A DNA stretch of 39,192 nt, from the NCBI GenBank assembly GCA_030706455.1, contig JAUZOL010000013.1:1-39192 (forward strand), in the 5' to 3' direction. The position numbers and the translations under genes are program-made. Source of the DNA: Bacteroidota bacterium (GTDB lineage Bacteria; Bacteroidota; Bacteroidia; Bacteroidales; Paludibacteraceae). Of the stretch, positions 9,532 to 28,563 are shown in pieces. The notes below the pieces were generated by a model. It saw nothing but the letters and a program-made list of their open reading frames with translations, was not told the origin of the DNA and ran no database searches. Each line of letters opens with the position of its first letter. The first letter of the stretch is position 1.

Positions 9532-10038
9532 ATGACAAAGTGTTTAATAGCGTATTATTCGCGCAAAGGACAAAATTATGTAAATGGCAGAATCATTGAT
9601 TTGGCTGAGGGAAACACCGAAGTCATAGCTAAAAAAATTCAGGCTATGACCGGAAGTGATATTTTTGAGATTGATACTGTAAAAGAGTATCCGATTGACT
9701 ATACTGCAACTACCCGGGTGGCAAAAGCTGAGTTGAATGCTGATGCAAGGCCGGAACTAACCGATAGCATTGACAATATGAATGAGTATGACACCATTTA
9801 TTTGGGATATCCTAATTGGTGGGGAACGTTTCCGATGGCAGTTTTTACGTTTCTGGAATCGTATGATTTTTCAGGTAAAACGATTATCCCTTTTTGTACG
9901 CACGAAGGTAGCGGAATGGGTGGACATTCGGACCTCAGCATGTTGTGTCCGAAGGCAAAAATAGAAAAAGGTATTGCAATAAAAGGGAGTTCGGTACATG
10001 GCGCCGATCACCTGATTCAAAACTGGTTAAACAAATAA
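9532..10038 (+). CDS. flavodoxin (Flavodoxin_4-like), cytoplasmic
   Basis: This 168-residue protein lacks a signal peptide. The N-terminal phosphate-binding loop of FMN proteins is present as CLIAYYSRKGQNYVNG. The isoalloxazine-binding loops are YDTIYLGYPNWWGTFPMAV and PFCTHEGSGMGG. It is closely similar throughout to the flavodoxin at 23146-23658, with a long identical core from the DTIYLG strand to GSGMGG. It probably carries electrons, or acts as an FMN-dependent reductase of quinone-like substrates. It begins the transcription unit divergent from the AraC gene and is followed 11 nt later by an aldo/keto reductase. The role is inferred from the fold and context. Confidence 0.9.
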   Translation: MTKCLIAYYSRKGQNYVNGRIIDLAEGNTEVIAKKIQAMTGSDIFEIDTVKEYPIDYTATTRVAKAELNADARPELTDSIDNMNEYDTIYLGYPNWWGTFPMAVFTFLESYDFSGKTIIPFCTHEGSGMGGHSDLSMLCPKAKIEKGIAIKGSSVHGADHLIQNWLNK

Positions 10039-12038: not shown

Positions 12039-12137
12039 ATATGAAACGAACATGTTGTTTCTGAACACCCAAGGGTAATATAATAATTGCAGCAACATGA
12101 AGTTCCATACTACCTTAAACGAAAAAATTATTATAGT
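12039..12137 (+). repeat. leader repeat copy A (upstream of exported Zn-ADH)
   Basis: This leader aligns base for base with 13310-13429, apart from a ~21-base insertion there. Shared blocks are ATATGAARCGAAYATGTTG, CAGCAACATG, CCATACTWCCTTA and AATTATTATAGTATGAAAAA, the last running into both start codons. An inverted pair CATGTTG/CAACATG (12051-12057 and 12093-12099) lies inside. It probably carries the promoter and a common control site. Confidence 0.75.
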
Positions 12138-13271
12138 ATGAAAAAGATAATAGGTATTAGTTTTTTATTGGTTTTTGTATTGTCTTCTATGACAATTGCG
12201 CAAGAAAAAAGAATTCCGGCTAAAGGCCTTGCTGTTTACGAGGCCGGAGGAGGTTTTAAACCCTATGAGTTTACCCGTCATGCCATCGGCGATGATGACA
12301 TTCTCATCGAAACAATGTACGCCAGCATCTGCCATAGCGACTTACATCACACACACCAAGATTGGGGAACTGAAATTTACCCAATGGTTCCCGGACACGA
12401 AATTGTTGGAAAAGTAGTCAAAGTGGGGAAGAATGTTACCAAATTTAAAGTAGGCGATTATGCCGGTGTGGGTTGTATGGTAAACTCTTGTGGAGAATGT
12501 GATTATTGTAAAGCCGGTTTAGAGCAGTATTGCAAAAAAGTAATGATGACTTATCATGGTAAGGATTGGGCTCACGGCAACGAAATCACGCAAGGCGGAT
12601 ATTCAAATAATATTGTTGTCAAAGACCGTTTTGCGGTATTGGTACCTAAAAATGCGGATATGAAAAAAGTGGCTCCTTTATTGTGCGCCGGTATCACCAC
12701 TTATTCGCCACTCAGGCAGTCGCACATAAAAAAAGGAGACAATGTGGCTATTGCCGGTTTTGGAGGGCTTGGTCATATGGCCGTAAAATATGCAGTAGCA
12801 TTGGGCGCCAAAGTTACCGTATTTGATATCACCGAAGACAAACGGGCTGAGGCTGCTAAAATGGGCGCAATAAAATATGTCAATGTCAATAATGAAAGCG
12901 AGTTGAAGGGAATGGACGATAGCTTTGACTTTATCCTAAGTACCATTCCTGCAATGTACAATCCTTCCATGTATCTTAAAATGACAAAATTCAAAGGCGA
13001 TTTTGCAATTGTCGGCTTACCCGCATTTAATAACCAACCTACATTTAAAGTAATGGACTTTGTGTTTTGTGCTGGCAGAAATGTATATGGATCTCAAATT
13101 GGAGGCATGAAAGAAACACAGGAAATGTTGGACTATTCGGTAACTAACAATATTTATCCTGAGGTGGAAATTATCAAAGCCAATGCCGATACCGTTACAC
13201 AAGCTTATAAAAATGTATTGGCCGGAAAAGTAAAATTCCGATATGTTATTGATATGTCGACTTTGAAGTAA
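12138..13271 (+). CDS. zinc-dependent alcohol dehydrogenase (CAD/YahK type) with signal peptide
   Basis: This 377-residue medium-chain dehydrogenase starts at 12138 (MKKIIGISFLLVFVLSSM then TIAQ). A longer frame from 12087 adds 17 residues that read through the conserved leader, so I reject it. The catalytic zinc ligands appear in ASICHSDLHH and VPGHE. The structural zinc site has four Cys in NSCGECDYCKAGLEQYC. The cofactor motif is GFGGLGHMAVK. Relatives such as E. coli YahK and YjgB are cytoplasmic, NADPH-dependent, broad-range aldehyde reductases. Here a Sec-type signal with a probable AQ cleavage site precedes an otherwise normal enzyme. How a periplasmic form would obtain NADPH is not clear. 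Confidence 0.9.
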   Translation: MKKIIGISFLLVFVLSSMTIAQEKRIPAKGLAVYEAGGGFKPYEFTRHAIGDDDILIETMYASICHSDLHHTHQDWGTEIYPMVPGHEIVGKVVKVGKNVTKFKVGDYAGVGCMVNSCGECDYCKAGLEQYCKKVMMTYHGKDWAHGNEITQGGYSNNIVVKDRFAVLVPKNADMKKVAPLLCAGITTYSPLRQSHIKKGDNVAIAGFGGLGHMAVKYAVALGAKVTVFDITEDKRAEAAKMGAIKYVNVNNESELKGMDDSFDFILSTIPAMYNPSMYLKMTKFKGDFAIVGLPAFNNQPTFKVMDFVFCAGRNVYGSQIGGMKETQEMLDYSVTNNIYPEVEIIKANADTVTQAYKNVLAGKVKFRYVIDMSTLK

Positions 13272-13309
13272 TTCTGTTTGGATAGATAGACTCAGAATTT
13301 AAAATAGTT

Positions 13310-13429
13310 ATATGAAGCGAATATGTTGCATCACAACGTCCAAGAGAATTGTAATAATTTCAGCAACATGGAGTTAGCTTCGCTGATTTTTCAATTCCAT
13401 ACTTCCTTAGATGAATAAATTATTATAGT
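13310..13429 (+). repeat. leader repeat copy B (upstream of flavodoxin lipoprotein)
   Basis: This is the second copy of the leader found at 12039-12137. It contains an extra segment at about 13376-13396 and an extra small inverted pair GTTG/CAAC at its left part. The match runs up to and across the start codon at 13430, including AATTATTATAGTATGAAAAA. Confidence 0.75.
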
Positions 13430-14185
13430 ATGAAAAAAGTCATTGCCATTACTGTTTGTTTGCTGTTGAAATTCACGTTGATTTCATGTGCTGCCGTAGA
13501 TAATACTTCTCACGATAAAAATAGGAATACCATCACTGTTGATAGTATTTCCAAAGAAAAGATTCTTATTGTATATTTTTCTCATGCTGGCGAGAATTAT
13601 GCTGTAGGTCATATTAGTGTTGGCAATACGGCTGTAATGGCTGGCTTTATCCGCGATTTTACAGGTGGTTCTATATTTGAAATTGTGCCCAAAGTACCTT
13701 ATCCGGATAGTTATGAGGAAATGAAAACGATTTCAACCAATGAATCAAAAAACAATATACGTCCTCAAATAAAAGATACAATATCGGATTTAGATAAATA
13801 CTCAATTGTCTTTGTTGGTTCACCCATTTGGTATGACGGACCCCCAATGATTATGCGCACATTTTATGAAACCTACAAGGAAAAGCTCAAGAATAAAATC
13901 ATTATTCCCTTTGGAACTCATGAGGGTAGTGGCGTAAGTAGTTGCACTGATCTAATAAAAGAGTATTTCCCCGATATTAAGTCTTATGACGCCTTTGGGG
14001 TTAGAGGACGGGATGTGCGAAAATCCCGGGATAGTGTTGATACTTGGCTTCGAGGTCTTGGCTTCGCTAAAAACAAGTCAGATGTTAATGAAAAAATTAG
14101 TATACCTGTTCACAGTTGCAATGATTTTATCTTGCAACGGAACTTTAAATGCACAAAAAATGAAAAAAGAAATACCGACTATTAG
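13430..14185 (+). CDS. flavodoxin-domain lipoprotein (exported), with abnormal C-terminal extension
   Basis: The frame is 251 residues long. MKKVIAITVCLLLKFTLISC is a lipoprotein signal with Cys20. A ~35-residue linker precedes a Flavodoxin_4-type domain: ILIVYFSHAGENYAVG for the FMN phosphate, IVFVGSPIWYDGPP and IIPFGTHEGSG for the ring. The domain should end near DTWLRGLGF (about residue 213). The frame instead continues for about 38 low-complexity residues and overlaps the next gene by 98 nt. A TAA in the +2 frame at 14068 lies exactly where the domain should stop, so a one-base indel is likely. Predicted location is the periplasmic face of a membrane. The redox partner is unknown. Confidence 0.85.
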   Translation: MKKVIAITVCLLLKFTLISCAAVDNTSHDKNRNTITVDSISKEKILIVYFSHAGENYAVGHISVGNTAVMAGFIRDFTGGSIFEIVPKVPYPDSYEEMKTISTNESKNNIRPQIKDTISDLDKYSIVFVGSPIWYDGPPMIMRTFYETYKEKLKNKIIIPFGTHEGSGVSSCTDLIKEYFPDIKSYDAFGVRGRDVRKSRDSVDTWLRGLGFAKNKSDVNEKISIPVHSCNDFILQRNFKCTKNEKRNTDY

Positions 14186-15350
14186 TAATTTTTCGGTTGG
14201 CAACCCGCTTCCGGAAATGTATTCCAAATATTTTATCGGCCAGGCATATCTGGCACCTTTGGCTCAGAGCAAAGACCTGAATTGCCCGATAATGAACGTA
14301 ACTTTCGAGCCCGGTTGCCGAAACAATTGGCACAGTCATACAGGAGGACAAATCCTTGTTGTAGTAGGCGGGAAAGGCTACTATCAGGCAAAAGGAGAAC
14401 CCGCCCGTATGCTTTTGCCCGGCGATGTTGTAGAAATTGCACCCAATGTCATTCATTGGCACGGTGCAGCCCCGGATAGCTGGTTTTCGCATTTGGCAGT
14501 TGAGACTAATCCGCAGAATAATAAAAACACTTGGTTAGAACCGGTTGATGATGAAGAATATAAAAAAGCTACAGCAGGTTCTGTAACTAAAGCGGTAAAC
14601 CTGACAAAAGCCGCCATTAAGAATCATGAAGAATTGTGGCCCGGTTACGATTCAAAAGCTGCCAAAACAGACCCGGAACTGATTGAGATCTTCGACAACT
14701 GGGCATTTGATGAAGTGATTCAGAAAAGTGGAGATCTCGACACCAAAACCCGTACTATGATGATAATGGGTTCCTGCATTGCTCAAGGAGCACTAACCGA
14801 ATATAAAATGTTTGTAAATGCAGCACTCAATGTGGGAGTTACTCCTGTTGCAGTAAAGGAAATCCTATACCAGTCAGTGGCTTATGTAGGTGTGGCAAAA
14901 GTGATTGATTTTCTGTACGCAGCCAACGAGATTTTGAAAGAACGTGGTATTGAACTGCCTTTGGAAGGACAAGCGACCACCACACCTGAGAATAGACATG
15001 AAAAAGGCTTGGCTCTCATGAAATCGACATTCGGCGATCAGATAGCTTTGGCTAAAGATAAAGCACCTGACGATCAGAAACATATTCAAGATTATTTAAG
15101 AGGCAACTGCTTTGGCGATTATTACACCCGCACCGGATTGGATATGAAAACGCGTGAATTGTTGACTTTTTCTATGCTTATCAGCATGGGAGGAACTGAT
15201 TCTCAAGTTCGCGGGCATATTCAGGGTAATCTAAATGTTGGTAACGATAGAGCAACACTGGTTGATATTACAACACAACTATTACCATATATTGGTTATC
15301 CCAGAACACTGAATGCACTGAATGCAATTAACGAAGTGTTACCTGAATAA
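14088..15350 (+). CDS. exported cupin-carboxymuconolactone decarboxylase fusion
   Basis: I chose the ATG at 14088 (MKKLVYLFTVAMILSC, then NGTLNAQ), giving 420 residues with a lipoprotein or Sec signal. The upstream frame from 13986 lies inside the flavodoxin gene. A cupin follows: RNNWHSHTGGQILVVVGGKG with His-x-His metal ligands, then PGDVVEIAPNVIHWHGA. After a linker come two CMD/AhpD-like repeats: TRTMMIMGSCIAQGALTEYKM and TRELLTFSMLISMGGTDSQVRGH. No CxxC pair of true AhpD peroxidase is seen. Such fusions are common in gut Bacteroidales near flavodoxins and reductases, but the reaction is not established. It may be translationally coupled to the overlapping flavodoxin. Confidence 0.88.
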   Translation: MKKLVYLFTVAMILSCNGTLNAQKMKKEIPTISNFSVGNPLPEMYSKYFIGQAYLAPLAQSKDLNCPIMNVTFEPGCRNNWHSHTGGQILVVVGGKGYYQAKGEPARMLLPGDVVEIAPNVIHWHGAAPDSWFSHLAVETNPQNNKNTWLEPVDDEEYKKATAGSVTKAVNLTKAAIKNHEELWPGYDSKAAKTDPELIEIFDNWAFDEVIQKSGDLDTKTRTMMIMGSCIAQGALTEYKMFVNAALNVGVTPVAVKEILYQSVAYVGVAKVIDFLYAANEILKERGIELPLEGQATTTPENRHEKGLALMKSTFGDQIALAKDKAPDDQKHIQDYLRGNCFGDYYTRTGLDMKTRELLTFSMLISMGGTDSQVRGHIQGNLNVGNDRATLVDITTQLLPYIGYPRTLNALNAINEVLPE

Positions 15351-15393: not shown

Positions 15394-16578
15394 ATGGAAA
15401 ATTTCAGTTTTTATCTGCCTACTATCGTTCATTTCGGTAAAGGCCAAATTTCAAGTTTAGGTGCTTCCATAAAACAATTTGGCGGAAGCAAAGTGTTGCT
15501 CGCTTATGGCGGCGGAAGTATTAAGGCAAATGGCATTTACAATGCAGTTGTTGCAGCGTTGAAAAAAGCAAACATTCCATTTGTCGATTGCGATGGCATT
15601 AAACCCAATCCTCCGGTTGAGGATGTAAACAGGGGGATTAAACTTTACAGGGATAACGGTTGTGATTTTATACTTGCTGTTGGTGGTGGTTCCACCATTG
15701 ACGCTTGCAAGGCAATGGCTGCCGGAGTTTGCTACGATGGCGATGTGATGGACCTTATGGCAGGTGGCAAAGGTGAGATTAAAACGGCTGCACCATTGGC
15801 TGCCGTGCTTACGATGGCCGGCACAGGAAGTGAACTGGATCTGGGTGGGGTGATTACTGCTGGAGCAGATCATAAGAAGCACACGATTATGCACCCGCTA
15901 CTTTATCCTAAATTCTCAATATTGGATCCGACTTATACCTTCTCTGTTCCGGAAAAACATTCCATGGCAGGTAGTTTTGATGCATTGGATCACTTAATTG
16001 AGTGTTATTTCATTGCAGGCAGCGAATCTACCGATGTTCAGAATATGATGAACGAAGGATTGATGCGTTCAATAGTGAAAAATGCACCATTGATTCTTGA
16101 GAATCCGGAAAATTATGATGCCCGGGCTAATATTATGTGGGCTAGCTCAATGGCTTTAGCAAGCTTTCAGTTTGCATTGGGGAAAAAAGGTTCAAATTGG
16201 CCTATGCACGCCATGGGACATGAATTATCAAGCCTTTATGATATGACTCACGGAGTAACATTGGCCCTGATAGCGCCTTCTTATTTGGCATTTACCTTGG
16301 AGAAGGCACCCGAATATACCTGGTTGTTTGCCAATTTTGCCCGAAATGTATTTGGAGTTGTTGAAACCGACGATGCATTAGCGGCTAAAATGGGAATCGC
16401 AAAACTCAAAGAATTCACTTTGACATTGAAGATGCCTAACAATCTGAAAGAAGTAGGTGTTGAAGAGGATAAGCTTGAATATCTGGCCGAAAAAGCAACC
16501 GAATGGGGTAATATCGGGGCTTTGTGTAAAATTGAAAAAGATGAAGCTTTGGAGATTTACAAAAATGCTTTTGCATAA
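15394..16578 (+). CDS. iron-containing alcohol dehydrogenase (YqhD/BdhA-like)
   Basis: This 394-residue type III ADH belongs to the YqhD branch. MENFSFYLPTIVHFGKG begins the Rossmann-like domain and AVGGGSTIDACKAMA is the NADPH-binding GGGS segment. Metal ligands are Asp and His in SFDALDHLIECY and two His in MHAMGHELSSLYDMTHGVTLALI. E. coli YqhD reduces many short aldehydes, including products of lipid peroxidation and methylglyoxal-type compounds, with NADPH. No signal peptide is present, so it acts in the cytoplasm. It follows the cupin-CMD gene by 43 nt and is probably in the same operon. Confidence 0.93.
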   Translation: MENFSFYLPTIVHFGKGQISSLGASIKQFGGSKVLLAYGGGSIKANGIYNAVVAALKKANIPFVDCDGIKPNPPVEDVNRGIKLYRDNGCDFILAVGGGSTIDACKAMAAGVCYDGDVMDLMAGGKGEIKTAAPLAAVLTMAGTGSELDLGGVITAGADHKKHTIMHPLLYPKFSILDPTYTFSVPEKHSMAGSFDALDHLIECYFIAGSESTDVQNMMNEGLMRSIVKNAPLILENPENYDARANIMWASSMALASFQFALGKKGSNWPMHAMGHELSSLYDMTHGVTLALIAPSYLAFTLEKAPEYTWLFANFARNVFGVVETDDALAAKMGIAKLKEFTLTLKMPNNLKEVGVEEDKLEYLAEKATEWGNIGALCKIEKDEALEIYKNAFA

Positions 16579-17259: not shown

Positions 17260-17847
17260 ATGGACAAGAACAGATTAGAAGCTTTTTCAGATGGTGTAAT
17301 GGCAATCATTATAACCATTATGGTATTGGAGTTTAAGATTCCAAAAGAAACGACATGGAATGCACTATCTCAACTTTGGCCCGTATTTTTAAGCTATGCC
17401 CTGAGTTTCTTCTTTGTTGGTTTGAACTGGAGCAATCATCATCACTTATTTCATCAGGCTAAAAAGGTAAACAACAAAATTTTATGGGCGAATTTGCTCA
17501 ATCTTTTCTTTCTCTCATTTGTTCCGTTTTCTACTGCCTGGATGGGCGAGAACTCGTTTAATAGTAATACGGTAACTTTTTATGCGTTAATCCTGACTTC
17601 AAGTGTTTTTGCCTATTTGTTATTAGTACATCAGTTACGTTGCTTACATGGCCTTGAATCGGATTTTTCAAAAGCATTTAAGGGATATATCAAGGTCTAT
17701 TGGACTATTGCTTTAAATATAAGTGCCGCTTTAATCGCATTTTTGGGCTTACCAAAACTTGCGTTTATTTTATTGATTCTAATCTCAATATTTTGGTTTA
17801 TTCCGAATCATAGAACTGTACAGCAGGGCAATGAAGTATCAGAATAA
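17260..17847 (+). CDS. TMEM175-family potassium channel-like membrane protein
   Basis: This 195-residue integral membrane protein begins MDKNRLEAFSDGVMAIIITIMVLE. The RxxxFSDGVxAIxxTxxVL motif of TM1 is diagnostic of TMEM175/DUF1211 and lines the pore of bacterial homologues. About six membrane segments can be counted, and NWSNHHHLF is the conserved stretch after the third. Bacterial members form tetrameric potassium-selective channels. The gene starts 12 nt after the NmrA-like gene, suggesting joint transcription. Its role in a redox cluster is unclear; ion balance during electrophile stress, as with Kef systems, is only a conjecture. Confidence 0.88.
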   Translation: MDKNRLEAFSDGVMAIIITIMVLEFKIPKETTWNALSQLWPVFLSYALSFFFVGLNWSNHHHLFHQAKKVNNKILWANLLNLFFLSFVPFSTAWMGENSFNSNTVTFYALILTSSVFAYLLLVHQLRCLHGLESDFSKAFKGYIKVYWTIALNISAALIAFLGLPKLAFILLILISIFWFIPNHRTVQQGNEVSE

Positions 17848-17928
17848 CCTTAACCAATTGAAGATTTTATAGAACAATAATTCAGAGGCTGTTTGCTCTG
17901 ATCAGATCAAATATAGATTAATCATATA

Positions 17929-18828
17929 ATGGAAAAGATTGAAAATATAGAAGATTTTTACCTGCAAAAGTTCAATAAAATACCGGATAATTTACAGCAG
18001 GAAATTGGACATTTTAATGTCTTTAGATTAGAACCATTTGTAGGAGAACAAGCTAAACCAGTACCCTACAAACGGAGAGATTACTATAAAATTTCTTTAG
18101 TAATAGGGAAAAGCAGAGTCCATTATGCCGATAAGGTTGTTGAGATTCAAAAACAGGCTTTGGTGTTTTCCAATCCGTTAATTCCCTTTAAATGGGAAAA
18201 TCTGGAGAGTGTCAGTAATGGCGCTTTTTGTGTGTTTAATCAGTCATTTTTTCATCAATATGGAAATCTGAATCAATATGAGGTGTTTTTGCCTAACGGA
18301 ACGCATGTATTCGAATTGACAGATGATCAGCTCAGTGAAATAACTTCGTTCTATGAACGAATGTTCATGGAAAAAAATTCAGAATATCTTCATAAAGATG
18401 ATATTCTACGGACTGTTGTTTTAGAAATTCTACATTATGCCATGAAGATGCAACCGGCAGTGAGCATCGTAAAACAGCAAATTAATTCAAGTCAAAGAAT
18501 CTCTATGTTGTTTCAAGATCTTTTGGAACGGCAATTCCCGATTGACGAGAGTTATCAACAAGTAAAACTTCGGTCAGCTTCCGACTTTGCAAAGCAGCTC
18601 AATATCCATGTAACTCATCTCAACAGGGTGATTAAAAGCATATATAATAAAACAACTACTCAAATCATTGCAGAACGCATTTTGCAAGAAGCAAAAGTGC
18701 TTTTAAAGTATAGTGTTTGGAGTGTATCTGAAATAGCCTATGCACTCGGATTTACAGAGACAACTCATTTCAATAACTTTTTTAAGAAATACGTACAGAC
18801 GTCTCCCCTGAAATTCAGAAATGCTTGA
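17929..18828 (+). CDS. AraC-family transcriptional regulator
   Basis: This 299-residue protein has a cupin-like N-terminal sensor (about 35-150) and a C-terminal AraC DNA-binding domain. The first HTH is SASDFAKQLNIHVTHLNRVIK and the second is WSVSEIAYALGFTETTHFNNFFKKY, ending PLKFRNA. It lies on the same strand as its neighbours, between the TMEM175-like gene and the aldo/keto reductase at 19022. By position it probably controls that AKR. It is not a close copy of the AraC protein at 8475. Confidence 0.88.
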   Translation: MEKIENIEDFYLQKFNKIPDNLQQEIGHFNVFRLEPFVGEQAKPVPYKRRDYYKISLVIGKSRVHYADKVVEIQKQALVFSNPLIPFKWENLESVSNGAFCVFNQSFFHQYGNLNQYEVFLPNGTHVFELTDDQLSEITSFYERMFMEKNSEYLHKDDILRTVVLEILHYAMKMQPAVSIVKQQINSSQRISMLFQDLLERQFPIDESYQQVKLRSASDFAKQLNIHVTHLNRVIKSIYNKTTTQIIAERILQEAKVLLKYSVWSVSEIAYALGFTETTHFNNFFKKYVQTSPLKFRNA

Positions 18829-18879
18829 ATTTCGTAATTTCTTGTTCGAATTTAGTTATTTATCCGCTACCGGAACGCC

Positions 18880-18887
18880 TAACTTTG
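18880..18887 (+). promoter_or_regulatory. candidate -7 element of the AKR gene
   Basis: TAACTTTG matches TAnnTTTG, 135 nt before the start at 19022. A matching -33 element is not clear. Confidence 0.35.
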
Positions 18888-19021
18888 CTGTATCAATTTA
18901 AACAACAAGACATACAATCCCGGAAATTGAATAATAGAGTTTTTTGCACTAATATCAGTGGAATAGCTACTTATGAGTAAATTTCGGAGAGCGTATTGAT
19001 TCAATTTAAAATTAAAGCAAA

Positions 19022-20014
19022 ATGAAGTACGTAAAATTAGGTAACACAGGTTTGGATGTTTCTAAAATCTGTTTGGGTATGATGAGTTTCGGAAAACCCG
19101 GTAATGAGAACGGTCTTTTCCCATGGGCAAAAGATTTTGAAGATGCTAAACCGATCTTTAAAAAAGCAATTGAGTTGGGTATCAATTTTTTCGATACGGC
19201 CAACATCTATCAAATGGGATCAAGCGAGGAAGTGACTGGGAAATTGATTAAGGAGTTTGGTCTCGATAGAGACGATATTGTAGTCGCATCAAAAGTAAGA
19301 ATGGATATGCGCCCGGGCAAACCTAATGGCGGCGGTCTTTCCCGCAAAGAAATCCTGTGTGAGATTGATAAGACTTTGAAGCGGTTACAACTGGATTATA
19401 TTGATCTTTACCAGATTCACCGATTGGATCCCCTGACTCCTAAAGAAGAAATTATGGAAGCTCTTCATGATGTGGTTAAAAGTGGTAAAGTAAGATACAT
19501 TGGTGCATCTACCATGTATGCATGGGAGTTCGAAAGAATGCAAACCATTGCAGAGAGAAACGGATGGACCAAATTTGTTTCCATGCAAAACCAATATAAC
19601 CTGATCTATCGCGAGGAAGAGCGTGAAATGATTCCTTTGTGTCAGGATCGCAAAGTGGCCATTATACCTTGGAGTCCACTTGCCGGTGGACGTACAGCTC
19701 ACCCTTGGGGTACTAAAACAGCTCGTGTGGAGATTGATGAAGTTTCTAAATGGGTATGGGATGGCACCAATGACTTAGACAAGGTTGTCGTGGATAACCT
19801 GGAGAAAATAGCTAAAGAACGTGGTATATCAATGGCACAAGCCTCATTGGCATGGATGCTAAGCAAACCTTATGTTACAGCTCCTATTGTAGGAACAACA
19901 TCTGTTCATCATGTTGAAGAAGCTGTGGCAGCTCTCGATATTACGCTTACTGCAGACGAAATCTCGGCACTTGAAAAGCCATACGTAAACCATCCGGTTT
20001 TAGGCATGATGTAA
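19022..20014 (+). CDS. YajO-like aldo/keto reductase
   Basis: This 330-residue AKR closely resembles E. coli YajO along its length, with shared blocks such as GINFFDTAN, GKVRYIGAS, QYNLIYREEEREM and IPWSPLAGGR. The catalytic Asp and Tyr are in FFDTANIYQ, the Lys in VVASKVRM and the His in YQIHRLDP. The cofactor end is APIVGTTSVHHVEEAV. It is followed by a strong terminator and preceded by its own likely promoter, so it appears monocistronic. The physiological substrate is unknown. Confidence 0.93.
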   Translation: MKYVKLGNTGLDVSKICLGMMSFGKPGNENGLFPWAKDFEDAKPIFKKAIELGINFFDTANIYQMGSSEEVTGKLIKEFGLDRDDIVVASKVRMDMRPGKPNGGGLSRKEILCEIDKTLKRLQLDYIDLYQIHRLDPLTPKEEIMEALHDVVKSGKVRYIGASTMYAWEFERMQTIAERNGWTKFVSMQNQYNLIYREEEREMIPLCQDRKVAIIPWSPLAGGRTAHPWGTKTARVEIDEVSKWVWDGTNDLDKVVVDNLEKIAKERGISMAQASLAWMLSKPYVTAPIVGTTSVHHVEEAVAALDITLTADEISALEKPYVNHPVLGMM

Positions 20015-21040: not shown

Positions 21041-22749
<1,709 letters not shown>

Positions 22750-23145: not shown

Positions 23146-23658
23146 ATGGACTCAAATAAAATACTCATAGCCTATTATTCACGCAAAGGGCAAAATTATG
23201 TTAGTGGTGATATCGTTAATCTTCCCGTAGGAAATACCGAAGTTGTTGCAAAGAAAATACAAGCCATAAAAGGTGGAGATTTATTCTATATCGACACCAT
23301 CAAACCCTATCCGGCTGATTATATGCAAACTACTGAAGTAGCTAAAGTGGAACTTCGCCAAAATGCACGGCCTGAATTAAATGACTCGGTTAAAAACATG
23401 GACTACTATGATACCATTTATTTGGGTTATCCCAACTGGTGGGGCACTTTCCCAATGGCTGTATCTACTTTTTTAGAATCGTATGACTTTTCAGGCAAAA
23501 CCATTATCCCTTTTTGCACACACGAAGGGAGCGGAATGGGTGGCGAGCGGGATATTAAAAAACTATGCCCCAATACCACGGTTCTTAAAGGTATTGCGTT
23601 ACATGGTAGCACTGTGACAAGTGCCGATAAAATGATTCAGAGTTGGCTTAATCATTAA
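23146..23658 (+). CDS. flavodoxin (Flavodoxin_4-like), paralogue of the 9532 gene
   Basis: This 170-residue protein has no signal peptide. KILIAYYSRKGQNYVSG is the FMN phosphate loop, and YDTIYLGYPNWWGTFPMAV and PFCTHEGSGMGG are the ring-binding loops. It is most similar to the flavodoxin at 9532, identical over long stretches of the core. It ends the SDR-AKR-cyclophilin-like-flavodoxin unit and converges on the hxlR gene at 23705. No strong terminator is visible in the 46-nt gap. Confidence 0.9.
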   Translation: MDSNKILIAYYSRKGQNYVSGDIVNLPVGNTEVVAKKIQAIKGGDLFYIDTIKPYPADYMQTTEVAKVELRQNARPELNDSVKNMDYYDTIYLGYPNWWGTFPMAVSTFLESYDFSGKTIIPFCTHEGSGMGGERDIKKLCPNTTVLKGIALHGSTVTSADKMIQSWLNH

Positions 23659-26756: not shown

Positions 26757-27620
26757 ATGAAACAACTGATTATAGACTCTGTCAATCAGTTTGTAATCCA
26801 AAGTGAGTTCAATAGAATGGTCAATACGAACTCACCTTACTACGATCAACCGCTTGTGAAATTTGCGGCTGCTCATGACCCTCTATTTGAGGAATACAAA
26901 CAGATTATCGGGCCGTTTCATCTCACACCCCGTGAAGCTTTTGAAATGGAATACGGAAAAGGAAGCTTTCACGAGGGGACAGTTATAAGCGTGGTTTTAC
27001 CCATAAGTGAAGCTATTCGGAAAAGTAACCGTGTTCAGAAAGAATTTGCTTCAAAAGAGTGGGCTTTGCTTCGCACATTTGGCGATGAATTTTTCATTGA
27101 TTCACTATCAAATCACATTGTCAACTTGCTGAAAAATAGCGGCTTTAAATCTTTAGATCCTTCTCGGTCGGAGCAGTTCAAGATTTTCGCGAAAACTGAA
27201 GTTGGCATAGCTTCCAATTGGTCGGAACGGCATGTAGCCTATGTGGCAGGTCAGGGATCTTTTTCTCTTAATGATGGTTTTATAAGCGAAAAGGGGATGG
27301 CAGTCCGTATGATGTCTGTTGTAACGGACGCCATATTGCCTACAGATGTTCGACCCGCGAAGCATCATACCGAAAATTGCTTGTTTTGCAATAATGGTAC
27401 TTGTGGGGCTTGTATTAAAAGATGTCCAGCCGGAGCCATTACTAAAAAGGGACATGATAAATATAAATGTTATGAATTTACGTATAGTGAAGAAGGACGC
27501 CAACGCGCTGTAGCTTGGGGCTGTGAATATCAATATGGCTCAGGCTGCGGTTTGTGCCAAACTAAAGTTCCATGCGAATTCAATAACCCGGTATTAAACG
27601 CTAAATCTCAATTTCAATAA
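26757..27620 (+). CDS. 4Fe-4S protein, epoxyqueuosine reductase (QueG)-like C-terminal domain
   Basis: The 287-residue protein starts at 26757 (MKQLIIDSVNQFV), ten bases after fabF; a longer frame from 26697 overlaps fabF. The N-terminal half has no recognisable motif beyond helices. The C-terminal half has CLFCNNGTCGACIKRCP, including the CxxCxxxCP cluster pattern, and a second set in WGCEYQYGSGCGLCQTKVPCE, so two 4Fe-4S clusters are likely. GIASNWSERHVAYVAGQG resembles the GKN-type segment of QueG-like corrinoid proteins. Whether a corrinoid binds is not evident. It is probably an electron donor or reductase for the operon. Confidence 0.75.
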   Translation: MKQLIIDSVNQFVIQSEFNRMVNTNSPYYDQPLVKFAAAHDPLFEEYKQIIGPFHLTPREAFEMEYGKGSFHEGTVISVVLPISEAIRKSNRVQKEFASKEWALLRTFGDEFFIDSLSNHIVNLLKNSGFKSLDPSRSEQFKIFAKTEVGIASNWSERHVAYVAGQGSFSLNDGFISEKGMAVRMMSVVTDAILPTDVRPAKHHTENCLFCNNGTCGACIKRCPAGAITKKGHDKYKCYEFTYSEEGRQRAVAWGCEYQYGSGCGLCQTKVPCEFNNPVLNAKSQFQ

Positions 27621-27639: not shown

Positions 27640-28563
27640 ATGAAAACAATAAATTCATTCGCTCTATTCTTAGTAATAGCATTATTATCATCAAATTATG
27701 CGTATTCTCAAAAAACAAACAAAAGTATGGAACAATTAGCAACAAAAGCTCAAACGCAATTTGCGAGCATCGACAACAACAAAATTGCATATCGGAAATT
27801 CGGGAAAGGCACACCTATTATCATAGCCAATCGATTTCGTGGTACATTAGATACTTGGGATCCGCTTTTTCTCGATTTGTTGGCACAAAACAATACTGTT
27901 ATAACATTCGATTATGCCGGTATTGGCTACTCCAGTGGCGAACTACCATTGGATATTAAACTAGTAGCGGCCGAAGTAACAAAACTGGCAGATTATCTGA
28001 AAATCGACAAGTTTAACGTTATGGGTTGGTCCTATGGTGGTTGGGTAGCACAATATGTTACCTTTTTGAACCCTTCAAGAGTGTTGAAAACTGTACTTAT
28101 CGGGACAAATCCAATGGGTAAAAATGAAATATCATTCGAACCTGCATTTCTAGAGAGAGCATTGAAACCGCAAAACGATTTTGAAGATGGAGTAGTAATT
28201 TTCTATGAACCTACATCAGAAAAAAGCAGAACTGCTGCACAAGCGTCAATGGGTCGAATTTTTGCCCATGCCGATGTCTCAAAAATCCCGGCAACACAAG
28301 AATTATTTCAACGCTATTTTGCGTCAAATGTAGCCATTGCCGAAGATAAAGACCACTTTAGAGAAGCTTATGCAACATTGAAAACACCCGTGTTGGTACT
28401 CTCTGCCGACCACGACATATCGTTTGCCGCCGCAAATTGGTTTCCGCTCCTAAAACATGCACCATCGGTTCAGCACATTATTTTCCCTGAATCCGGACAT
28501 GCAATGCATTTTCAATATCCCGAATTATCAACACAATATATCAAAGCTTTCCTCAACAATTAA
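27640..28563 (+). CDS. exported alpha/beta hydrolase
   Basis: This 307-residue protein has a Sec signal (MKTINSFALFLVIALLSSN, then YAYSQ) and an alpha/beta-hydrolase fold. The nucleophile elbow is MGWSYGGW (GxSxG), the acid is in LSADHDISF and the His in PESGHAMHF. NRFRGTLDTWDPLF is the oxyanion strand. The enzyme is likely an esterase or related hydrolase in the periplasm. It is 19 nt after the Fe-S gene and 11 nt before the first SDR, within the TetR operon. The substrate is unknown. Confidence 0.88.
   Translation: MKTINSFALFLVIALLSSNYAYSQKTNKSMEQLATKAQTQFASIDNNKIAYRKFGKGTPIIIANRFRGTLDTWDPLFLDLLAQNNTVITFDYAGIGYSSGELPLDIKLVAAEVTKLADYLKIDKFNVMGWSYGGWVAQYVTFLNPSRVLKTVLIGTNPMGKNEISFEPAFLERALKPQNDFEDGVVIFYEPTSEKSRTAAQASMGRIFAHADVSKIPATQELFQRYFASNVAIAEDKDHFREAYATLKTPVLVLSADHDISFAAANWFPLLKHAPSVQHIIFPESGHAMHFQYPELSTQYIKAFLNN

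Follow-up and report, generated by a model that had tools for sequence, protein, structure and literature searches.

Why enzymes of normally cytosolic redox folds should carry export signals, and what they could do beyond the inner membrane, is the question raised by three consecutive plus-strand genes in the window, the whole 39,192-nucleotide stretch analyzed here. The window is contig C35 (JAUZOL010000013.1) of a 4.0-Mb Bacteroidota genome of the Paludibacteraceae (GCA_030706455.1), designated G000. According to Pfam searches, which were used to assign domains, the three genes encode a cinnamyl alcohol dehydrogenase (CAD)-type zinc alcohol dehydrogenase (ADH) (12138..13271; ADH_N and ADH_zinc_N), a flavodoxin lipoprotein (13430..14185; Flavodoxin_4), and a cupin-CMD fusion (14088..15350; Cupin_2 and CMD). 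We consider it probable that all three leave the cytoplasm and have their active parts beyond the inner membrane, as members of a recurrent Bacteroidales set that would carry out small-carbonyl or aromatic chemistry and would draw on a quinol-linked electron supply.

Export signals were scored with a simple caller of our own, not SignalP, based on a charged n-region, a hydrophobic 9-mer, and a cleavage site or lipobox. Within the window, Rossmann strands and membrane proteins also trigger this caller, so that comparisons were made using a threshold of 2.2 at an ATG. The ADH N-terminus, MKKIIGISFLLVFVLSSMTIA↓Q (the arrow marks the called cut), was called as a type I signal peptide spanning 12138-12200, with a mean Kyte-Doolittle value of 3.2 in the h-region. 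The same value was obtained for the flavodoxin N-terminus, MKKVIAITVCLLLKFTLIS↓C, which ends in the lipobox LIS↓C with cysteine at +1 (signal, 13430-13486; Cys20 codon, 13487-13489; domain, 13619-14050). The cupin-CMD N-terminus, (ML)MKKLVYLFTVAMILS↓C, reached 2.4 and was called as a lipoprotein signal (SPII) with the lipobox ILS↓C, a type I cut at LNA↓Q being an alternative read by eye. By this caller, the window proteins have the n-, h-, and c-regions of a general secretory (Sec)-type signal, which are kept in relatives. The arrangement claimed in a preliminary description of this DNA, i.e., three consecutive genes each with a signal peptide, is thus borne out by the Pfam assignments and by these scores.

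Applied to the neighborhoods compared, the same caller labeled 36 of 48 flavodoxin rows and 18 of 24 CMD rows as exported, fractions that should not be read as genome-wide rates because the loci were mostly fetched with exported proteins as queries. One flavodoxin row (L044) matched a CMD protein by chance, leaving 35/47 without it, and three rows called “none” (L034, L186, and L187) seem, on visual inspection, to be exported; three “Tat” labels (twin-arginine translocation) among the 18 exported CMD rows resemble type I signals with an RR pair. No signal was called in any of 61 control rows, namely 19 iron-type ADHs (Fe-ADH), 17 aldo-keto reductases (AKR) of the AKR3 type, and 25 AraC proteins, although two of the 17 AKR rows (L186 and L187) are flavodoxin-AKR fusions that look lipoprotein-like by eye and were missed by the caller. 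At several loci, exported flavodoxins adjoin exported CMD or cupin proteins, and unsignalled Fe-ADH, AKR, and AraC genes lie beside them. The longer plus-strand run around the three window genes also holds unsignalled flavodoxin, AKR, short-chain dehydrogenase/reductase, Fe-ADH (15394..16578, its start without a signal), NmrA-like, and AraC genes. Two Flavodoxin_4 paralogues without a signal lie on the plus strand at 9532..10038, which served as an internal control, and at 23146..23658. Judged from the sequences, conserved export signals on these normally cytosolic redox folds are real, and the predicted signals show a recurrent Bacteroidales set in which the flavodoxin, the CMD or cupin protein, and often hydrolase copies are exported while Fe-ADH, AKR3-type AKR, and AraC are unsignalled.

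The same N-termini could be read in another way, with an older cytosolic gene having gained a signal at its 5′ end and two starts in use, so that the ADH, the cupin-CMD protein, and many relatives would also or mainly be cytoplasmic; in a variant of this explanation, the signal would be an uncleaved, inside-facing anchor. Several observations favor it and count against full export. In the ADH, an in-frame Met18 (12189) stands at the end of the signal, after the hydrophobic core, and in the cupin-CMD protein Met25 (14160) comes directly past the signal. A Met is found in the linker just ahead of the domain in 21 of the 36 exported flavodoxin rows, as if an older start codon had been retained when a signal was added to an older cytosolic gene, and in some Campylobacterota and Bacteroidia ADHs (L076, L085, L103, and L159) a Tat-like region is followed by a Met shortly ahead of the domain. 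Dual location is possible, with some of the ADH or cupin-CMD protein in the cytosol. On the other side, the window flavodoxin lacks any Met between its initiator and residue 70, and initiation at an internal ATG would consequently cut into its first strand; likewise, the ADHs of L140 and L187 have no Met between signal and domain. Thus, the refuting condition named in the preliminary description, translation that begins past the signal regions, may hold for the ADH and the cupin-CMD protein, whereas an in-frame Met scan contradicts it for the flavodoxin. The positively charged n-regions, the cleavage sites or lipobox, the retention of signals though the sequences have diverged, and the occurrence of Sec and also Tat signals in close relatives also speak against two starts and against the earlier suggestion that the signals merely anchor proteins whose active part stays inside. 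We regard this explanation as improbable.

With the three proteins taken as exported, the ADH would be free in the periplasm, the flavodoxin would be tethered as a lipoprotein, and the cupin-CMD protein could be either. The ADH keeps both the catalytic and the structural zinc ligands of its family. Its best match in the Protein Data Bank is Helicobacter pylori mannitol dehydrogenase (3two), which, like Escherichia coli YahK (1uuf), belongs to the same medium-chain zinc ADH family with these ligands kept; the window ADH differs from both by its signal peptide. The residues of NADP-type enzymes are not found at the end of Rossmann strand beta2, where Asp230-Ile of the window ADH aligns with Ala-Arg of 3two, a difference that presumably points to NAD instead of NADP. 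An Asp at this site marks NAD preference in medium-chain ADHs, and we take Asp230 (within VFDITEDK) to be an NAD-type cofactor residue. The objection that NADPH is not to be expected in the periplasm therefore loses its premise for this enzyme.

Among 106 aligned relatives (matches with fewer than 250 aligned residues or a domain of at most 300 were left out), Asp occupies position 230 in six, all labeled as exported (five Sec and one Tat); the 94 rows that carry no signal label all have Ser, Thr, or Ala instead. A Fisher comparison of this residue used nine hand-chosen exported rows, and the rows L163, L136, and L006, labeled as exported on weak scores, were discounted. Four ADHs that are 76 to 59% identical in the domain form the clade of the window protein, and all have Sec-type signals: L067 (a metagenome-assembled genome [MAG] titled Crocinitomicaceae), L068 (a MAG titled Akkermansia; its score of 1.81 is below the threshold and the signal was accepted by eye), and two copies of genome G226 (L140 and L187). 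In Helicobacter sp. 16-1353 (L069), a more distant Tat-signalled ADH with Asp (4391) and an unsignalled copy without it (6004) lie 1.6 kb apart; the Tat copy has no settled place in the tree, which holds 48 of the 106 aligned sequences. The zinc ligands are complete in the five clade members and in the Helicobacter Tat copy. As the six Asp230 ADHs are related, they may reflect one ancestral change and not independent cases. Other features of the family fit an exported NAD-type enzyme less well. The Tat-signalled ADHs of L070, L103, and L159 lack Asp230, and that of L103 has lost the structural zinc ligands. In addition, the six Cys among the zinc ligands of the window ADH, along with two others, would face an oxidizing compartment. 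In favor of export, by contrast, is the Cys count, which is 7 to 8 in the exported clade versus 8 to 11 in nearby unsignalled Campylobacterota rows.

The flavodoxin model (five sequences) had a fair core, with block predicted local distance difference test (pLDDT) values of 74 to 96 over residues 41-210, and its best structural matches were 4ici, 3klb (a flavin mononucleotide [FMN] complex), and 4j8p; 3klb is also the nearest solved relative by sequence. Close relatives end at about WLKGLGY/F, and the window protein runs on for 39 residues (14066-14182, with the frame open to 14185) in an extension that overlaps the cupin-CMD signal region in another frame. The original flavodoxin stop seems to have been lost, and the cupin-CMD gene, which starts at 14088 (or, alternatively, 14082), shares 98 nucleotides with the 3′ part of the flavodoxin gene. 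The solved relatives of the fusion are 2f4p (TM1010) for the cupin part and the gamma-carboxymuconolactone decarboxylase 2af7 for the CMD part; these two, together with the cupins 4bif and 4uxa, share its domains by sequence, while the window protein differs in having both domains in one exported chain. Neither PcaC nor mandelonitrile lyase activity is assigned to the fusion, as it scores under the NCBIfam cut-offs for both (87.2 bits against 155.7 for the PcaC equivalog).

The closest published parallel to an exported flavodoxin is a system flavinylated by ApbE. The sections of PMC11334425 on Flavodoxin_4 describe ApbE-associated members, predominantly from Firmicutes, that are flavinylated on Ser/Thr in a beta1-alpha1 insert; they contrast these extracytosolic proteins with unflavinylated cytosolic members and report that DUF4405 gene clusters often include a Flavodoxin_4 of the flavinylated type. 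Similarly, NapH-like membrane proteins occur in flavinylation clusters, as stated in an excerpt of PMC8238504. As far as these portions of the two papers go, the likeness is threefold: the Flavodoxin_4 (PF12682) domain of the window carries an export signal, some relatives of the window flavodoxin adjoin NapH-like (PF12801) or DUF4405 genes, and exported flavodoxins of genome G071 (L183) carry the flavinylation-like sequences DASSGASRV and DASTSASRV in the beta1-alpha1 insert. In contrast, the window insert at the same place, GENYAVGHISVGNT, holds no flavinylation motif, and the protein is a lipoprotein from a Bacteroidales-like genome, whereas the ApbE-associated ones in that description are mainly from Firmicutes. 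Searched with a pattern of our own, the motif was absent from the window flavodoxin and was present in the insert in only the two L183 rows; flavodoxins of L008 and L013 match it elsewhere, after helix 1. The unsignalled window paralogues also have an insert at the beta1-alpha1 place. No apbE gene was found on C35, the ApbE matches of the genome lying on C157, C272, and C51. The window flavodoxin is not a member of the published flavinylated system as described in those sections.

Possible support from another source is found in Tannerella forsythia, in which a 21.1-kDa flavodoxin is listed in the vesicle proteome as periplasmic by CELLO prediction (PMC4604654, Table 1). That location is a prediction, and small contamination of the vesicles is not excluded in that paper. 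The titles and abstracts of the open-licence literature yielded no paper on a periplasmic, exported, secreted, or lipoprotein flavodoxin in Bacteroidetes and nothing linking NapH, Tat AKR, and flavodoxin in Bacteroides; the one match for a flavodoxin lipoprotein was a paper on Fusobacterium annotation, and that for a signal-bearing periplasmic NAD-type CAD was a review.

The preliminary description had offered an unfamiliar electron route as one of two possibilities and had suggested looking for a membrane donor to the flavodoxin. Such a route is plausible, its candidate coming from the operons of relatives. In G023 (L288:1731-5186), three genes overlap in succession: one for a Tat-signalled AKR with a ferredoxin domain (Fer4), one for an exported flavodoxin, and one for a NapH/NapG-like membrane protein. 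Flavodoxin, NapGH, and Tat-AKR genes also lie together in G102, and the neighbors of two lipoprotein flavodoxins in G071 (L183:7940-17722) are a Tat-signalled Fe-S protein, a NapGH-like protein, and a Tat AKR. In G013, 4 bases separate the genes of an exported flavodoxin and a DUF4405 protein, and a DUF4405 match lies 2.6 kb from a flavodoxin in G101. Based on hand-entered counts, 33 genomes have both a flavodoxin and a NapGH gene, and in 4 of them the two are no more than 5 kb apart, versus 0.26 expected; for DUF4405, such proximity is seen in 2 of 6 genomes versus 0.04 expected. Companion genes are also seen for close relatives of the window ADH. Within about 7 kb, L067 combines the exported ADH, an exported-looking cupin-CMD protein, a Tat AKR, and an anchored flavodoxin. 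On contig C68 of G226, the exported ADH (L186:9547-10686) is preceded by an FMN_red-like lipoprotein and an exported hydrolase and is followed, one transporter gene on, by a lipoprotein-like flavodoxin-AKR fusion, with an exported cupin-CMD protein and flavodoxin 7 kb further (17623-19037). The Flavodoxin_4-AKR fusions of G226 lie at L186:11920-13377 and L187:11577-13073; by eye, IPKSVRKE of the window AKR at 21904 is replaced by IPGSSNPD in the fusion AKR, a possible loss of NADP binding.

In the scheme that these operons suggest, the flavodoxin outside would receive electrons from a quinol-linked membrane protein, probably NapH/NapG-like, and would pass them to exported partners. More specifically, a Bacteroidales relay with noncovalent FMN might run from menaquinol through a NapH/NapG-like Fe-S protein and the lipoprotein flavodoxin to exported oxidoreductases, i.e., Tat-AKRs, flavodoxin-AKR fusions, and the NAD-switched ADH; we put this full chain forward tentatively. 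In the window genome, the NapGH-like gene, a candidate donor, is on C79 with no exported flavodoxin near, and the window cluster has no PF12801 (NapH-like) membrane protein of the kind present in some relatives' clusters. No Tat-AKR was found in the genome at E ≤ 1e-60. With NapGH apart and no Tat-AKR match at that cut-off, the relay is borrowed from relatives, and the candidate route is not seen beside the window genes. Moreover, G102, one of the four near cases, was also the source of the NapGH query, and NapGH-like genes occur in all eight genus genomes, including four without a flavodoxin match (G001, G003, G006, and G007). As these genes are present regardless of the flavodoxins that a genus member has, NapGH presence was rejected as an explanation for the window genome.

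The proteins might also be exported and yet largely redox-silent outside, serving, for example, to bind nucleotides or small molecules. Sec export would deliver apo-proteins, with FMN and NAD to be acquired outside, which counts against a working redox set; the window flavodoxin has no covalent flavin attachment motif, and a periplasmic NAD(H) pool is not known to exist in general. Nonetheless, the zinc ligands are kept across the exported ADH clade, its pocket has switched to another specific cofactor signature, and exported flavodoxins of relatives adjoin Fe-S electron-transfer genes. Periplasmic glucose-fructose oxidoreductase and the exported Gfo/Idh/MocA enzymes are nucleotide-dependent and act outside with a held cofactor; they are Tat-exported and of another fold, whereas the ADH signal is of the Sec type. 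Like the two-start explanation, redox silence appears to us improbable. In the exported set that we prefer, the ADH with its NAD-type pocket would draw on NAD(H) that is present or retained in the periplasm, perhaps bound to the enzyme as a cofactor, and the set would reduce or detoxify small carbonyls or aromatics on either side of the membrane.

Another arrangement would leave the flavodoxin exported and electron-carrying, the ADH and cupin-CMD protein having arrived separately and receiving none of its electrons. G+C is patchy along the gene run (0.37 at 12-14 kb and 0.43 at 14-16 kb), the ADH and the flavodoxin each stand behind their own copy of a repeat, and most relatives hold the exported flavodoxin and CMD protein without this ADH. 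However, L067 and contig C68 of G226 also have, close together, an exported ADH, a cupin-CMD protein, and a flavodoxin that is exported or tied to the membrane, and we consider separate arrival unlikely, if less so than the two explanations above.

The repeat occupies about 100 bases 5′ of the ADH (12041..12143) and of the flavodoxin (13312..13435), both copies on the plus strand with the gene's start codon forming the copy end; the first has ATGAAA at both ends, and the left end of the second is ATGAAG. A “leader plus signal peptide” cassette of about 140 bp common to the two 5′ ends had been entertained as a duplication and was dropped, as the shared stretch belongs to a repeat that is spread over the genome and ends at ATGAAA. 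The reading that this repeat encodes a conserved MKRTCC leader peptide was dismissed by eye, the copies varying in frame and stop positions. The window genome holds 23 DNA matches and, by the model, at least 31; copies number at least 9 to 44 in every one of the eight genus members and occur in at least 15 of 61 genomes, the model counts being lower bounds because no more than 64 candidates per genome were scored. Among 43 distinct copies with a complete right end (L230-L278), 32 open a frame of at least 80 residues from the ATG, the others being cut by locus ends or having no long frame behind them. All 33 copies matched from profile position 1 begin with ATGAA, which is partly built into the profile; those of L236 and L254 have ACGAAA at that place. 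In front of dnaN, G000, G005, and G001 have the element and G006, G004, G002, G003, and G007 lack it, and dnaN starts with ATGAAATTT in seven of the eight genus genomes and with ATGAGATTT in G002. The element has two hairpins with modest covariation, had no match in Rfam, and was not found described in the titles and abstracts of the literature. It ends on ATGAAA starts of unrelated genes, namely dnaN and, by eye, trpB-, hisIE-, and SusD-like genes and many encoding exported proteins. An ATGAAA-like sequence stands at both ends, and tandem copies share one boundary (G000 copies, L230-L249; other genomes, L251-L278). It looks like a nonautonomous mobile element that targets start codons, and our guess is a single-strand element of the IS200/IS605-like type. 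In Borrelia, dispersed IS605 stem-loops have been linked to lipoprotein genes, according to the abstract of PMC2775950.

An exported alpha/beta hydrolase had also been placed in the TetR operon. Its signal is present (27640..28563, plus strand; called SPI with an h-region of 3.4 and a cut at AYS↓Q read by eye), but the gene sits in a separate run after the TetR gene, from 24861 onward. The same run encodes a 4Fe-4S-type protein (26757-27620) with a weak reductive-dehalogenase match (TIGR02486, 30.8 bits versus a cut-off of 160).

A lipoprotein flavodoxin without an attachment motif, frequent in the Bacteroidales loci examined and in some cases adjoining quinol dehydrogenases and exported reductases, would, if true, represent a second mode of extracytosolic flavin chemistry. 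An exported NAD-type ADH would likewise open the question of NAD(H) in the periplasm to direct testing, and the exported set may bear on aldehyde or aromatic transformation ahead of uptake. If the relay is true, reductive chemistry that is normally cytoplasmic would be carried out beyond the inner membrane.

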